From Rhodobacteraceae bacterium LMO-JJ12 (GTDB lineage Bacteria; Pseudomonadota; Alphaproteobacteria; Rhodobacterales; Rhodobacteraceae): 64,000 nt of DNA. The notes beneath the pieces are model-generated. The model worked only from the letters and a program-made list of their open reading frames with translations, was not told the DNA's origin and searched no databases. The stretch lies in NCBI GenBank assembly GCA_021555075.1, contig JAKGBX010000001.1, positions 930,001 through 994,000 on the forward strand, read 5' to 3'. Shown piece by piece: positions 24,005 through 30,152 of this stretch. Position numbers and translations under genes: made by a program. Position 1 is the first letter of the stretch, and every line of letters begins with the position of its first letter.

Positions 24005-24448
24005 TTACGTGCGGCGCAGGCGGATCACAACATCGACAGAAGCGATTTCGGCGCCTTCGGGCGCGGCTGGCATATTGGTGATATGCATGCGCTCGGTTGC
24101 GGCATCGGTCAGCGTGCCGGTGTCTTCCCAGAAGAAGTGCGGATGTTCGGTGGTATTGGTGTCGAAATAGCTTTTGGTGCCATCGACCGTGATTTCGCTC
24201 ATCAGGCCGGCCGCGCAGAAGGCGCGTAATGTATTGTAGACCGTTGCGAGCGAGACCTTGTCACCGCCATTGCACGCCGCCTCGAACAGGCTTTCGGCGG
24301 TGACATGGCGATGCTGGCCATCGCCGACCAGAAGTGTTGCCAATGTCATGCGTTGACGGGTCGGACGCAGGCCCGCGCCGCGAAGCCAGTCACCGCCCCG
24401 CTTTTCGGCAAGCTGCGTTTCAACATTCACCGGCGTTTCCAAATTCAT
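24005..24448 (-). CDS. irr: Iron response regulator Irr (Fur family)
   Basis: A 147-residue Fur-superfamily regulator. The start of the DNA-binding domain is WLRGAGLRPTRQRMTLATLL and the recognition helix is VSLATVYNTLRAF, both typical of Irr. The dimerisation domain reads VDGTKSYFDTNTTEHPHFF (H102, H104), a reduced form of the HHH haem-sensitive motif of rhizobial Irr. In alphaproteobacteria Irr controls haem synthesis and iron use. It is divergent from fabA with 196 bases between, the usual neighbour in Rhodobacterales. Confidence 0.92.
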   Translation of the reverse strand: MNLETPVNVETQLAEKRGGDWLRGAGLRPTRQRMTLATLLVGDGQHRHVTAESLFEAACNGGDKVSLATVYNTLRAFCAAGLMSEITVDGTKSYFDTNTTEHPHFFWEDTGTLTDAATERMHITNMPAAPEGAEIASVDVVIRLRRT

Positions 24449-24644
24449 TCCTCATTCTCCCCTGGCCCCTTGGTCGCTGGGGCCGCTTGGAAGGTAATAT
24501 AGGGGTTGAAGCGGGGTGTATTCAATTAGTTTCAGCCCGAAGATGTCGCAGAGGGCTGTACGAAGGCGGTCTTGCAGAGCCACTCGGGCGAATGCTAGAG
24601 GGGGTAGACCGATAAAATGGCGAAGGCAAAGGACCGCAAAACTG

Positions 24645-25154
24645 ATGGCCCAATATCCGAGCAGCTTCACCCGTGACGACCTGTTGAAATGCGCCCGTGG
24701 AGAGCTTTTTGGCCCTGGCAATGCGCAGCTTCCTGAGCCGCCGATGCTTATGATGGACCGGATCACGGATATTTCCGGCGATGGCGGAGCGCATGGCAAG
24801 GGTCATGTCGTGGCCGAGTTCGATATCAAGCCTGACCTGTGGTTCTTTGAGTGTCACTTCCCGGGCAATCCGATCATGCCCGGCTGTCTGGGGCTTGATG
24901 GGCTGTGGCAGTTGACCGGGTTCAACCTTGGCTGGCGTGGCTGGCCCGGGCGCGGCTATGCGCTGGGTGTTGGCGAAGTGAAGCTGAAGGGGATGGTGCG
25001 CCCTGACCGCAAGATGCTGACCTACAAGATTGATTTCACCAAGGCGATTCAGACGCGTCGCCTGACCATGGGCGTGGCCGACGGGATCGTCGAAGCCGAT
25101 GGCGAGGTGATCTATGAGGTCAAGGATATGAAGGTCGCCCTGAGCGAAAGCTAA
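24645..25154 (+). CDS. fabA: 3-hydroxydecanoyl-ACP dehydratase/isomerase
   Basis: Hot-dog-fold enzyme of 169 residues that dehydrates 3-hydroxydecanoyl-ACP and isomerises the trans-2 to the cis-3 double bond, starting unsaturated fatty acid synthesis. Catalytic His71 is in [13 protein letters not shown] and Asp85 in [10 protein letters not shown], as in E. coli. The start ATG 24645 gives [14 protein letters not shown]. Its partner fabB is separated from it by a minus-strand NOR-like gene. Confidence 0.96.
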
Positions 25155-25365
25155 AGGCGCAGGAAGGGTCGAGTATTCCCCTGACTTCGCGGCCGAATTG
25201 CGCCCGTTAATACCTGCTCTCCTGGTAATCCCGCGAAAACGCGCCCGGATAATGAAGGGCTGACTCCACAAACATTTCAGGCAAGTAATGGCGGCGCTTT
25301 CGCCCGACCTGGGGGGCGCTTGTCTGCGCGAGTCCCTTTGGCCGGGCGAAAGTTTTGTTTCTGGT

Positions 25366-27738
25366 CTATTCGGCGGAAACCGTGGGGGCGTCGGATGTGT
25401 TGGCCCAGCCATCGTTATTCGGCGACCATTCCCCGTCACCTTCTTTGGTGGTTTTGCGAATACGTGTGGCGCGGCTGAGGATGAACCATACCAATGGGAT
25501 CACGCCTCCGAGGGTGAAGACGAGGCCACCCCAGCTGCGCATCATTGTCAACGTGCGGAACACTTCGCCCTGAATGACTTCCTGGCTTCTGGCATACCAG
25601 AACCCTTCTTCAAGTACGACCCAGAATTGATAGAGCCCGGCAGGCAGCAGATCGAGGAACATCATCATCGCGAGACCAATGTTCATTGACCAGAACGAGA
25701 TACGGATCAGCTTGCGGTTCCATGCCTTGTCTTTGAACAGGTGCTGACAGCAAAACAGCATGCCACCGAGCGCGATATTGCCTTTGACGCCAAACATCGC
25801 GGCATGGGCGTGATTGCCGGTGAGATAGGTGGAATGTTCGAAATAGTTGATGATCGGTAGGTTGATCATCGACCCGAACACCCCGGCGCCAAACACGTTC
25901 CAGAAGTTCACCGCCAGCACGAACAGCCAGACTTCGTTCATTACAAAGCTCTGTTGGCCGTCCTTGTGGAACTGGGCGGCGCGCCCCTTCTCCTGGCGCA
26001 TCCGCCAGGCATCGAGCGTGAGCAGCAAGAGCGGCAACACCTGTAGCGTGGAAAAGACGCTGCCAAAGGCGATGACGCCGGTTGGCTTGGCGATCCAGTA
26101 GAAGTTATGCGCGATGCCAACGGTGGCGGTGAGCAAAAACAGCATGACCGCGAGGAAGATCACGCGTTCGGCCATGATCCGGGTGATCAGACCCATCTGC
26201 ACCAGCATGTAGGCGACGATCACAGTGGTGAAGACCTCAAAGGTTACTTCGACCCACATATGCACCACCATCCAGCGCCAGAAATCAGAGATGGCAAAGT
26301 TGGATTCGGGCGTGACCATCAGGCCGAAGAACAGGAAGAAAACCATCACGCTGCTGCCATAGAGAAGCCAGGCGGGCACCGACCAAAGGTTTTCAAGCGT
26401 GAGCCATGGCTTGATGCCGCGATAGATGATCACGATCCACAACGAGAAGGCTGCCAGCAGCAGTATTTGGAAGGCCCGGCCCATTTCCAGGAATTCCCAG
26501 CCTTGGCTGCCGAACCAATAGGCGGCTTTGCCTGTCAGAATTCCGGTCTGCCCGGCATAGATGCCGATGACGGACCCGGCGCCGACGATGAAGCAGCAGG
26601 CAAACAGCAGCTCGATCAGGACGCCCTGACCGCGCGGCACGGGGCCAAGACGCGGCAAAAAGAAGATCGTATAACCGACCCAGCACATGAAGAACCAATA
26701 GATCTGCAACAGCGTATGATAGCTGCGCAAGACGGTGAACGGGATGATATCCCCCAGAAATATCCCGCCGGGGCGCACGAAATCCGATGCCGCCAAAATG
26801 CCAACCGTAACCTGCAGCCCAAATGCCAGCATTGCGAGGGCAAAGAATTTATAGGTGGCGCGCTGGGTCTTGCGGACATTGCCATTTTCGAGATCGTAGG
26901 TGGTCAGCGACCTATCCTGACTGCCGGTAAACGGGTCGTATTGCAGTGATTTCATCTGGCCATAAATATAGAGCACGAGACCGATGCCGAGGAACAGTGC
27001 CAAGACTGACAGGATGCTCCAGAAGACAACGGCAGGTGTCGGCGAGTTGCCAACTTCGGGGTCGTAGGGCCAGTTGTGGGTATAGCTATAGGTTTCGCCT
27101 GGCCGATGGGCCGCGGCAACCCAGCCGCCCCAGAAGAAATAGGCCGACAGATCGCGCAGCTGTGTCGGGTCGGTCAGGTATCCGGTCTGAAACAGTTCAG
27201 GATAGTCAGGATCGGTGAACATCCGGCTGAAATGCGTGGCGACGGTCTCAAACCCGGCGACTTGGCCCTCGGTCAGTGTTACGGTGCCTGCCGCTTCGTC
27301 CCAGGTGTTGGTCTTGAGTTCGCGCCGTGTGCGGGCGGCGGCGGCGTCATGCGCTATCGGATCAGGGGCAGTTCCGTCCTCTGTCGCGCCGACGTAATGT
27401 GCCACCATGCCGGTGTACGTATAGTGCAGGGCATCGGCGGTGAAATCGGGTCCGCGCTCGGCCCCGTCACCCCAGAAGGAACCATAGCTCATCAGGCCGC
27501 GCAGGTGGAAAACTTCCTGACCCGCCATGATCTGTTCGCGTGAGAATACGGTGGTTCCATCCTCAGTCACAAAATCACCAAGCGGTGGGGCGCTGTCATA
27601 GGTCGCGTCGCCCATGTAAACCAAACCACTAAGGCAGATAATAACGACGGCTGCGAAATGGACGCCCCAGTATTTCTTGTTCAGCAGAATGGTCGCAAGA
27701 TTGCCGAACCGCTTTTTGTCGCGCGCAACGTCAGTCAT
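25366..27738 (-). CDS. Quinol-type nitric oxide reductase homologue with altered active site (Nod-like)
   Basis: Haem-copper-superfamily membrane protein of 790 residues with the qNOR layout: N-terminal helix, periplasmic cytochrome-c-like domain (about 45-235) and about 13 further helices. Haem ligands remain (H341; H643 and H645 in GNHAHAAMFG), as do FeB ligands H493 and E497 (VVHMWVEV) and H544. The next FeB ligand is Asn545 (AHNFYW instead of HHYYW). The Glu 21 residues later is Gln566 (FSTLQVLP). The quinol-site positions H/E/F/D of Geobacillus qNOR read S318, R322, I326 and G738. These changes recall those reported for NO dismutases. The gene sits between fabA and fabB. Confidence 0.85.
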   Translation of the reverse strand: MTDVARDKKRFGNLATILLNKKYWGVHFAAVVIICLSGLVYMGDATYDSAPPLGDFVTEDGTTVFSREQIMAGQEVFHLRGLMSYGSFWGDGAERGPDFTADALHYTYTGMVAHYVGATEDGTAPDPIAHDAAAARTRRELKTNTWDEAAGTVTLTEGQVAGFETVATHFSRMFTDPDYPELFQTGYLTDPTQLRDLSAYFFWGGWVAAAHRPGETYSYTHNWPYDPEVGNSPTPAVVFWSILSVLALFLGIGLVLYIYGQMKSLQYDPFTGSQDRSLTTYDLENGNVRKTQRATYKFFALAMLAFGLQVTVGILAASDFVRPGGIFLGDIIPFTVLRSYHTLLQIYWFFMCWVGYTIFFLPRLGPVPRGQGVLIELLFACCFIVGAGSVIGIYAGQTGILTGKAAYWFGSQGWEFLEMGRAFQILLLAAFSLWIVIIYRGIKPWLTLENLWSVPAWLLYGSSVMVFFLFFGLMVTPESNFAISDFWRWMVVHMWVEVTFEVFTTVIVAYMLVQMGLITRIMAERVIFLAVMLFLLTATVGIAHNFYWIAKPTGVIAFGSVFSTLQVLPLLLLTLDAWRMRQEKGRAAQFHKDGQQSFVMNEVWLFVLAVNFWNVFGAGVFGSMINLPIINYFEHSTYLTGNHAHAAMFGVKGNIALGGMLFCCQHLFKDKAWNRKLIRISFWSMNIGLAMMMFLDLLPAGLYQFWVVLEEGFWYARSQEVIQGEVFRTLTMMRSWGGLVFTLGGVIPLVWFILSRATRIRKTTKEGDGEWSPNNDGWANTSDAPTVSAE

Positions 27739-27780
27739 CAGATACCCTCAATTAATGCGTGCCGCACAGCATCCGATTGC

Positions 27781-27800
27781 GGTGACCAGATATGATCACC
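27781..27800. promoter_or_regulatory. Imperfect palindrome upstream of the NOR-like gene
   Basis: GGTGACCAGATATGATCACC lies 43 bases before the NOR-like start. The arms GGTGA and TCACC plus the central ATAT are symmetric; two pairs mismatch. It is a candidate operator at the position of the core promoter. The regulator is unknown. Confidence 0.45.
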
Positions 27801-27863
27801 GCGCAAGGGGGCACCTGCGACAAATTTCTTGGGGACCCTAAGGATGGTGCCTCTGGTGGGAAA

Positions 27864-27875
27864 TGACGGCCGTCA
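27864..27875. promoter_or_regulatory. Perfect palindrome TGACGGCCGTCA in the NOR-like/fabB gap
   Basis: The perfect 12-bp dyad lies in AATGACGGCCGTCAAT, 126 bases before the NOR-like start and about 250 before fabB. It has the look of a Crp/Fnr-type site (NnrR/Dnr targets are TTG...CAA dyads), but the family cannot be fixed by eye. The rest of the 388-base gap shows no gene. Confidence 0.45.
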
Positions 27876-28126
27876 ATATTCGCCATTCTGATTGCGTGCT
27901 AAGCCTCAGAATTGGGGTGACTCGCCGGTATCGGGGACTGATTTCGTTGCAAAATGTTCAGTCCATGACGCGCGTGCCGTGTCAAAGGCGACGGATGAGC
28001 GGCGTCGTGAATTGCGCTTGTCCGGGCATGGACGACTTCGGGCGGCAGGATCGCTGATTGCAATCTGGTTGCGCCAAACTGCGTGGCTCTCTATCACGGG
28101 AATTGAAATAAGAAGGGAGTATGCCC

Positions 28127-29356
28127 ATGCGCCGCGTTGTCGTTACCGGTTTGGGAATCGTGTCGTCCATCGGGACAAATGCCGAAGAAGTCGCGGCGTC
28201 GCTGAAGGCGGGTCGTTCCGGGGTCTCGGCCAACGAGGCGATGGTCGAGCATGGCTTTCGTTCGCAGATTGCAGGGACCATCGACATTGACATTGCGGCT
28301 CATGTGGACAAACGCAGCCTGCGCTTCATGGGGCCTGGGGCGGCCTATGCCCATATTGCCATGGGTCAGGCGATTGCCGATGCTGGTCTGGAAGAAAGCG
28401 ATATCTCTGATCCGCGCACCGGGCTTGTGGCAGGTTCGGGCGGTCCCTCGACCAGCGCGCTGCTGGTCGCACATCAAACGGTTCTGAAAACCGGCGCGAC
28501 CAAGCGGATTGGGCCTTTTGCAGTGCCCAAGTGCATGTCGTCTACGATCTCGGCCAATCTGGCGACGGCCTATAAGATCAAGGGCATCAACTATTCGATC
28601 ACCTCGGCCTGTTCGACATCTCTGCATTGCATCGGCAATGCGGCTGAGCAGATCATGATGGGCAAGCAAGACGTGATGTTTGCCGGGGGCGGAGAAGAGC
28701 TTGACTGGACGCTGTCGTGCCTGTTTGACGCGATGGGTGCGATGTCTTCGAAATTCAACGACACGCCCGAGAAGGCCTCGCGCGCCTTTGATGCCGATCG
28801 CGACGGGTTCGTGATTTCGGGGGGCGGCGGTATTGTCGTGCTGGAAGAGCTGGAACATGCGCGCGCACGCGGTGCGAAAATCTATGCCGAGGTGACAGGT
28901 TTTGCCGCCACGTCGGATGGTCACGATATGGTCGCCCCGTCGGGCGAAGGCGGTGAGCGGGCCATGCGGCTGGCGCTTCAGACCCTGCCGGAAGGGCGCG
29001 CCGTGAGCTATATCAACGCGCACGGCACTTCGACCCCGGTCGGCGATGTTGGCGAGGTCGAGGCGGTGCGCCGGGTGTTCGGGGAAGGCCATGTGCCGCC
29101 GATCAGTTCGACCAAGTCGATGACCGGCCACGCGCAGGGCGCGGCGGGCGCGCTTGAGACGATCTTCTGCTTGCTGGCACTGGAGGGCGATTTCATCATT
29201 CCGTCGATTAATGTCGAAACGCTCGATCCCGCGATCAAGCCGGGAGAGGTGGCAACCAAGCTTGTCGAAGGTGCTGGGCTCGATTCAGTAATGACCAATT
29301 CCTTTGGCTTTGGCGGCACAAACGGGTCTATGATCCTTTCCAAGTATAACGAGTAG
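28127..29356 (+). CDS. fabB: 3-oxoacyl-ACP synthase I
   Basis: Condensing enzyme of 409 residues that elongates saturated and cis-3-decenoyl acyl-ACPs. The nucleophile is C162 in ITSACSTSLHC, and the two catalytic histidines lie in INAHGTSTPVGD and SSTKSMTGHAQG. ATG 28127 is chosen over ATG 28121 because AAGGGAG ends 7-8 bases before it, while the earlier ATG lies almost on the Shine-Dalgarno. fabI follows after 7 bases. Confidence 0.96.
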   Translation: MRRVVVTGLGIVSSIGTNAEEVAASLKAGRSGVSANEAMVEHGFRSQIAGTIDIDIAAHVDKRSLRFMGPGAAYAHIAMGQAIADAGLEESDISDPRTGLVAGSGGPSTSALLVAHQTVLKTGATKRIGPFAVPKCMSSTISANLATAYKIKGINYSITSACSTSLHCIGNAAEQIMMGKQDVMFAGGGEELDWTLSCLFDAMGAMSSKFNDTPEKASRAFDADRDGFVISGGGGIVVLEELEHARARGAKIYAEVTGFAATSDGHDMVAPSGEGGERAMRLALQTLPEGRAVSYINAHGTSTPVGDVGEVEAVRRVFGEGHVPPISSTKSMTGHAQGAAGALETIFCLLALEGDFIIPSINVETLDPAIKPGEVATKLVEGAGLDSVMTNSFGFGGTNGSMILSKYNE

Positions 29357-29363
29357 GGCTGAT

Positions 29364-30152
29364 ATGGGCGACCAAATGAAGGGCAAACGCGGGCTGATCA
29401 TGGGGGTCGCCAATGAACGCTCAATCGCTTGGGGGATCGCCAAGGCGATGGCCGAGGCGGGGGCCGTGTTGGCATTCACCTATCAGGGAGAAGCCTTTGG
29501 CAAACGGTTGTTGCCGCTGGCGCAATCGGTTGGTTCGGATTTCATGGTCGATGTGGATGTGACCGATGACGCCTCGCTTGATCGCGCGTTCAGTGAATTG
29601 GGCGCGCGTTGGGACCGGCTCGATTTTCTGGTCCATGCTATTGCGTTTTCCAACAAGGATGAACTCACCGGGCGCTTTCTCAACACCAGCCGTGAGAATT
29701 TCAAGAATTCGCTCGATATCTCGTGCTATTCGCTGATCGAAGTGGCGCGCCGCGCCGAACCGATGATGCATGAGGGCGGTACGGTTCTGACTTTGACCTA
29801 TCAGGGATCGAACCGGGTTGTGCCGAATTACAACGTGATGGGCGTCGCCAAGGCGGCGCTTGAGTCCACAGTGCGCTATCTCGCCAACGATCTGGGGCCA
29901 CAGGGCATCCGGGTGAACGCGATTTCGCCCGGCCCGATGAAAACGCTGGCAGGGGCCGCGATTGGCGGCGCGCGCAAGACGTTCAAGCACACCGACCAGA
30001 ACGCGCCGTTGCGCGCCAATGCGACGCTGGAAGCGGTGGGTGGCACAGCGGTTTACCTCGCCTCGGAGGCCGGTGCCTGCACCACGGGCGAGATCGTGCG
30101 GGTCGATGGCGGTTATCACGTTCTGGGCATGCCGCAGCCGGAGTGTATGTGA
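29364..30152 (+). CDS. fabI: Enoyl-ACP reductase (NADH)
   Basis: Short-chain reductase of 262 residues that completes each fatty-acid elongation cycle. The NADH-binding start is GLIMGVANERSIAWGIAKAM. Catalytic Y146, Y156 and K163 (LTYQGSN, PNYNVMGVAKAA) keep E. coli numbering. This is the triclosan-target type of enoyl reductase. It is in an operon with fabB. Confidence 0.96.
   Translation: MGDQMKGKRGLIMGVANERSIAWGIAKAMAEAGAVLAFTYQGEAFGKRLLPLAQSVGSDFMVDVDVTDDASLDRAFSELGARWDRLDFLVHAIAFSNKDELTGRFLNTSRENFKNSLDISCYSLIEVARRAEPMMHEGGTVLTLTYQGSNRVVPNYNVMGVAKAALESTVRYLANDLGPQGIRVNAISPGPMKTLAGAAIGGARKTFKHTDQNAPLRANATLEAVGGTAVYLASEAGACTTGEIVRVDGGYHVLGMPQPECM

Follow-up and report, generated by a model that had tools for sequence, protein, structure and literature searches.

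The organisms in which nitric oxide dismutase (Nod) is usually discussed are methanotrophs in slow-growing enrichments and a small number of hydrocarbon degraders. A search of the open-access literature brought up no account of a purified Nod and, when the enzyme was searched together with Roseobacter or Rhodobacteraceae, apparently no paper about nod in these organisms. The closest described proteins are those of Candidatus Methylomirabilis (DAMO_2434/DAMO_2437 type), unusual members of the quinol-dependent NO reductases (qNOR) for which Ettwig et al. 2012 described altered residues and proposed that NO is split to N2 and O2 (PMC3413370). An earlier sequence-only reading of the locus analysed here had pointed to this proposal, and the changes that it listed are those in that paper. 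Proteins of this type are highly expressed in Methylomirabilis, with no appreciable N2O (PMC3413370). The active-site changes have also been reported in viral NOD-like NorB and in qNorB-like proteins from the ODZ in the eastern tropical North Pacific, for which the authors left open reductase versus dismutase (PMC5723336, PMC8115048); their likeness to our protein lies in these reported changes. ODZ data have been interpreted as N2O formation by Nod-like genes (PMC5723336), and PMC6636425 credits Woehle 2018 with nod-like nor sequences in N2O-producing foraminifera.

Here we describe a nod-like gene in a marine roseobacter. It lies in the window, by which we mean the whole 64,000-nucleotide stretch of DNA analysed (Table 1). 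The reading frame opens with ATG and has zero internal stops; its strand was absent from the earlier reading. Pfam models COX1 (E 4e-52) and NorB_cytochrome_c-like (E 1e-45) match the protein, no NCBIfam model does so at its cut-off, a qNOR-type N-terminal domain is present, and the sequence contains no CXXCH haem c motif. A confident AlphaFold2 model (pLDDT 84) has the qNOR fold and resembles the crystal structure of Geobacillus stearothermophilus qNOR, 3AYF, with a TM score of 0.87 (range 0.85-0.87 over 3AYF and 8BGW). The fold is shared over the whole length at 30-32% identity to these two structures, whereas only in the qNORs are the HH pair, the Glu and the quinol site preserved.

Table 1. 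Features at the nod locus, in window coordinates.
Feature	Position	Strand	Remark
Irr/Fur-family regulator beside fabA	24005..24448	-	family named from sequence; conserved neighbour, not nod-specific
fabA homologue	24516..25154	+	left neighbour of nod; true start probably internal
nod-like gene	25366..27738	-	790 aa, qNOR fold with Nod signature
Q566 codon	26041..26043	-	replaces conserved active-site Glu of qNOR
N545 codon	26104..26106	-	replaces second FeB His, His560 in G. stearothermophilus
FNR/Crp-type box TTGACGGCCGTCAT	27863..27876	-	124 bp upstream of nod start
fabB homologue	28121..29356	+	right neighbour of nod
fabI homologue	29364..30152	+	
Nod signature of the protein			S318 R322 I326 H493 E497 E501 H544 N545 Q566 H643 H645 G738

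Residue-by-residue alignment to 3AYF places the substitutions precisely. At the quinol site, H328, E332, F336 and D746 of the reference correspond to S318, R322, I326 and G738; the second His of the qNOR HH pair is Asn, so that the pair reads H544-N545, and the conserved Glu 21 residues past the second FeB His is Q566. Haem ligands H341, H493, H643 and H645 are retained, as are glutamates E497 and E501. The alignment agrees with the sequence-only reading on every one of the changed letters, and equally on the haem ligands and glutamates that it had described as kept. These sites were compared across a single alignment of about 165 homologues, in which all canonical qNORs covering them combine H-E/D at the quinol positions with HH, E and D, and all cNorBs have HH and E. 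The N/Q pair never occurs in either group; HN, Q and G unite the window protein with its orthologues in roseobacters and with the Methylomirabilis Nod. The protein therefore differs at all six positions from a qNOR with intact quinol and HH/E sites, and it is not a cNOR in the sense of a short NorB with NorC, no norC adjoining nod. It has the residues of a Nod, with FeB His replaced by Asn, active-site Glu by Gln and the quinol residues unconserved, together with the haem b/b3 ligands, the qNOR fold and no haem c. The signature is not a chance one, because in shuffled windows 0 matches to the motif pattern are expected and the orthologues of two other roseobacter genomes (G029 and G069), found by protein similarity alone, retain every change.

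For the phylogenetic placement, a maximum-likelihood tree was built after removing the six signature columns, since the motif used to find many of the rows contains N and Q; for the many Nod rows found in this way, intermediates may be under-sampled, and the tree was built without bNOR, nNOR or other non-canonical NOR reference sequences. The window protein and Methylomirabilis Nod fall in one 17-row clade (bootstrap/SH-aLRT 100/100), inside which the window protein, Roseovarius amoyensis and G069 form a subclade (100/100). The qNORs stand apart from this clade, as they do in a larger quick tree, and Bacteroidota-type Nod-like sequences form another, separate group. Forcing the window protein together with qNOR lowered lnL by 110 and was rejected by the AU test (p-AU 4.6e-5). 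By these comparisons the window gene truly belongs to the putative Nod family. The sequence-only reading had preferred a Nod-like protein over a quinol-fed NO reductase, a preference that the clade, the AU test and the residue alignment all support; the outcome that it had set against itself, a position inside the canonical qNOR clade with the odd residues as alignment errors, did not materialise.

The comparison with Methylomirabilis Nod is close in protein and distant in setting. The two share about 58-61% identity, the HN pair, Gln for Glu, the lost quinol site, the kept haem ligands and the lack of haem c. At the quinol site the window protein reads S/R/I, whereas Methylomirabilis Nod has other non-qNOR letters. 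The window gene is a single copy, and its host is a roseobacter that combines AlkB/P450 with genes leading from nitrite to N2, as opposed to the methanotroph, in one genome of which (L161, 1-4528) two nod copies stand in tandem. R. amoyensis GCL-8, G069 and Magnetovibrio blakemorei belong to the same clade. The Bacteroidota Nod-like proteins ('Nod_b': Muricauda/Allomuricauda, Algoriphagus) carry the same HN and Q changes but are only 45-47% identical to the window protein; many of them still have His at the first of the quinol positions, and the HN pair is followed by FYWNAKP instead of FYWIAKP.

Among 397 Roseobacteraceae genomes sampled, nod occurs in three: the window's genome, G029 (orthologue 85-89% identical) and G069 (76%). 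With R. amoyensis GCL-8 added, whose protein and that of G069 are 74-76% identical to ours, the nearest relatives of the window gene by sequence are R. amoyensis and the two other roseobacters. A 398-genome sample of other Pseudomonadota contained only ordinary qNORs at 30-37% identity. Scanning about 85,000 species genomes for the motif returned at least 115 stretches, nearly all in NOR-family genes; among the matches listed are Candidatus Methylomirabilis and R. amoyensis GCL-8, and the phyla represented there are Methylomirabilota, Acidobacteriota, Myxococcota, Bacteroidota, Planctomycetota, Bdellovibrionota and Pseudomonadota. No relative was found on IMG/VR viral contigs in one alignment-based and one motif scan, and plasmids carried just NOR-type proteins below 60% identity.

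The genomic site of nod differs from genome to genome. In the window's genome, nod with its flanks (about 3 kb) sits between fabA and fabB on the opposite strand. It interrupts a probably ancestral fabA-fabB-fabI run, because in four relatives (R. amoyensis, G069, G006 and G029) fabA stands directly next to fabB. The junction itself (window 25155-28120) is variable: apart from these four empty cases, the same-genus genome G001 carries two unrelated genes there (ClpP-like and membrane protein) and G003 an insert of about 1.2 kb. An inositol-monophosphatase-like gene neighbours nod in G029; in G069 the genes run P450-AlkB-nod-Crp with short spacers, and in R. amoyensis 2.7 kb separate nod from a nirN-nirJ-...-nirF-nirS cluster. 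In the window, nod is unlinked to alkB. The roseobacter nod has probably spread horizontally and inserted at different sites. If acquired, the window gene is not foreign in composition, because its composition is like the host's (GC3 0.735 versus a host mean of 0.71, SD 0.05). A dN/dS of about 0.08-0.17 (Nei-Gojobori, against three relatives) indicates that it is under purifying selection.

The host carries a nirS-nirT-nir cluster, a second cd1-type nirS (several names were read from sequence), norCBQD with Dnr-type regulators (cNOR at C2:683877) and nosZ; NapA had no match above the curated cut-off in this genome. The earlier description of the host as an aerobic roseobacter is incomplete: with two cd1-type nirS, norCB(QD) and nosZ it has genes for the route from nitrite to N2 and is not only aerobic. 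Cd1 haem domains (NirS family) occur in five of the six nod genomes examined. The host also has a Crp-P450-AlkB module (C1:323602), with an AlkB 83% identical to that of G069; R. amoyensis likewise has the module, at 76%. Across the family, 16 of 397 genomes have the P450-AlkB module (AlkB identity at least 71%), most of them with a TTGA-N6-TCAA box, and close AlkB is found in 2/3 nod genomes versus 14/394 others (Fisher p 0.004, from a small sample of related genomes). As a nod-exclusive marker AlkB was rejected, with 14 nod-less genomes having the P450-AlkB operon.

The box upstream of nod suggests FNR/Crp-type control. It is a near-palindrome with one mismatch to TTGA-N6-TCAA and lies inside a 22-bp island, of which 19 bases are the same upstream of the G029 orthologue while the flanking DNA has diverged; in the window's genome, perfect boxes stand ahead of nirS and of the P450-AlkB operon. 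A promoter box conserved across all Nods was not found, as similar sites occurred only at G029 and certain other loci. The alkB-upstream box belongs to the P450-AlkB module in general, because most of the 14 nod-less P450-AlkB genomes have it. In the host (C1:321248-324736) and 15 other roseobacters a conserved TTGAC-N4-GTCAA box stands upstream of the P450, and in most a Crp/Fnr regulator is a neighbour, which gives this alkane hydroxylase operon apparent FNR-family control.

We consider it somewhat probable that the gene encodes a membrane NO dismutase converting NO from NirS to N2 and to O2 for oxygenases. At low oxygen with nitrite, NirS would make NO, two molecules of which would bind at the haem b3/FeB site and be disproportionated to N2 and O2 without quinol electrons; the O2 would be consumed on the spot, with oxygenases such as AlkB/P450 as its most plausible users, and NO would be removed. 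Against this reading, the host has cNOR and NosZ, so that reaching N2 needs no Nod; nod and alkB are apart in the window; AlkB occurs in many roseobacters without nod, and its association with nod comes from very few, related genomes. The N2O connected with Nod-like sequences in the ODZ (PMC5723336) and in foraminifera (PMC6636425) also counts against it. The protein could instead be a divergent 'qNorB-like' reductase that still turns NO into N2O through another electron donor and detoxifies NO alongside cNOR, an explanation that we hold possible but rather doubtful. The NOR fold and haem ligands, a denitrifying host whose NosZ would use N2O, and the ODZ work reading the clade as N2O formers (PMC5723336) all fit it. 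It has to account, however, for the loss of four quinol-site positions and of the active-site Glu, strongly conserved in the canonical qNORs examined, for a host that already has a complete cNOR operon, and for a protein type expressed in Methylomirabilis without appreciable N2O (PMC3413370).

The other explanations are weaker. Without its electron-entry site the protein could be one that only binds NO, as a sensor, sink or NO-dependent electron gate, with no turnover to N2 or N2O; we judge this unlikely, given that strong purifying selection keeps every metal-ligand position apart from the Nod change, as in expressed Methylomirabilis Nods, and that no signalling domain is fused. The sensing role offered by the sequence-only reading likewise found nothing pointing to it. 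A recently acquired, unexpressed passenger gene would suit the patchy occurrence in 3/397 genomes, at a different site in each, but the low dN/dS, the host-like GC3 and the promoter box common to G029 and the window gene make this very improbable. A canonical quinol-dependent NO reductase with misaligned residues has in its favour the 31-37% whole-length identity to qNORs; the unambiguous alignment and the rejected qNOR grouping refute it at the sequence level, and we give it practically no credence.

What makes nod in a roseobacter of interest is the alkB and nir neighbourhoods of its relatives, in a family that is biochemically unproven. Returning to the dismutase reading, we tentatively propose that the Roseobacteraceae Nod may have been recruited to an FNR/Crp-controlled P450-AlkB regulon, so that the cell would make its own O2 from nitrite-derived NO for anoxic alkane oxidation. 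The alkB-nod adjacency in G069 hints at what the O2 would serve, and the P450-alkB-nod arrangement predicts nitrite-dependent anoxic alkane hydroxylation. If true, these marine denitrifiers would form a separate line of intra-aerobic hydrocarbon degraders, some of them in culture, and nod in roseobacters that also carry nirS-type genes, nosZ and alkB, including the named R. amoyensis GCL-8, would open Nod to genetic and isotope tests.

A general linkage of the neighbours of this Nod clade (Nod_a) to oxygenases was weak, with two TauD-family matches among 138 neighbour ORFs. In a Saanich Inlet Rhodospirillaceae MAG (L112, 849-4058), nod has a PhyH-family dioxygenase gene 82 bp downstream on its own strand, and this partial genome has no cNorB match beyond nod itself. 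Elsewhere in the window's genome, beyond the window (C1:411000-430900), the class I benzoyl-CoA genes had, oah, dch, bcrC and bcrB score above NCBIfam cut-offs and adjoin PadB/C-like genes, a 2-oxoacid oxidoreductase and the second cd1-type nirS; by its gene content this is an anaerobic aromatic-catabolism island in a roseobacter.
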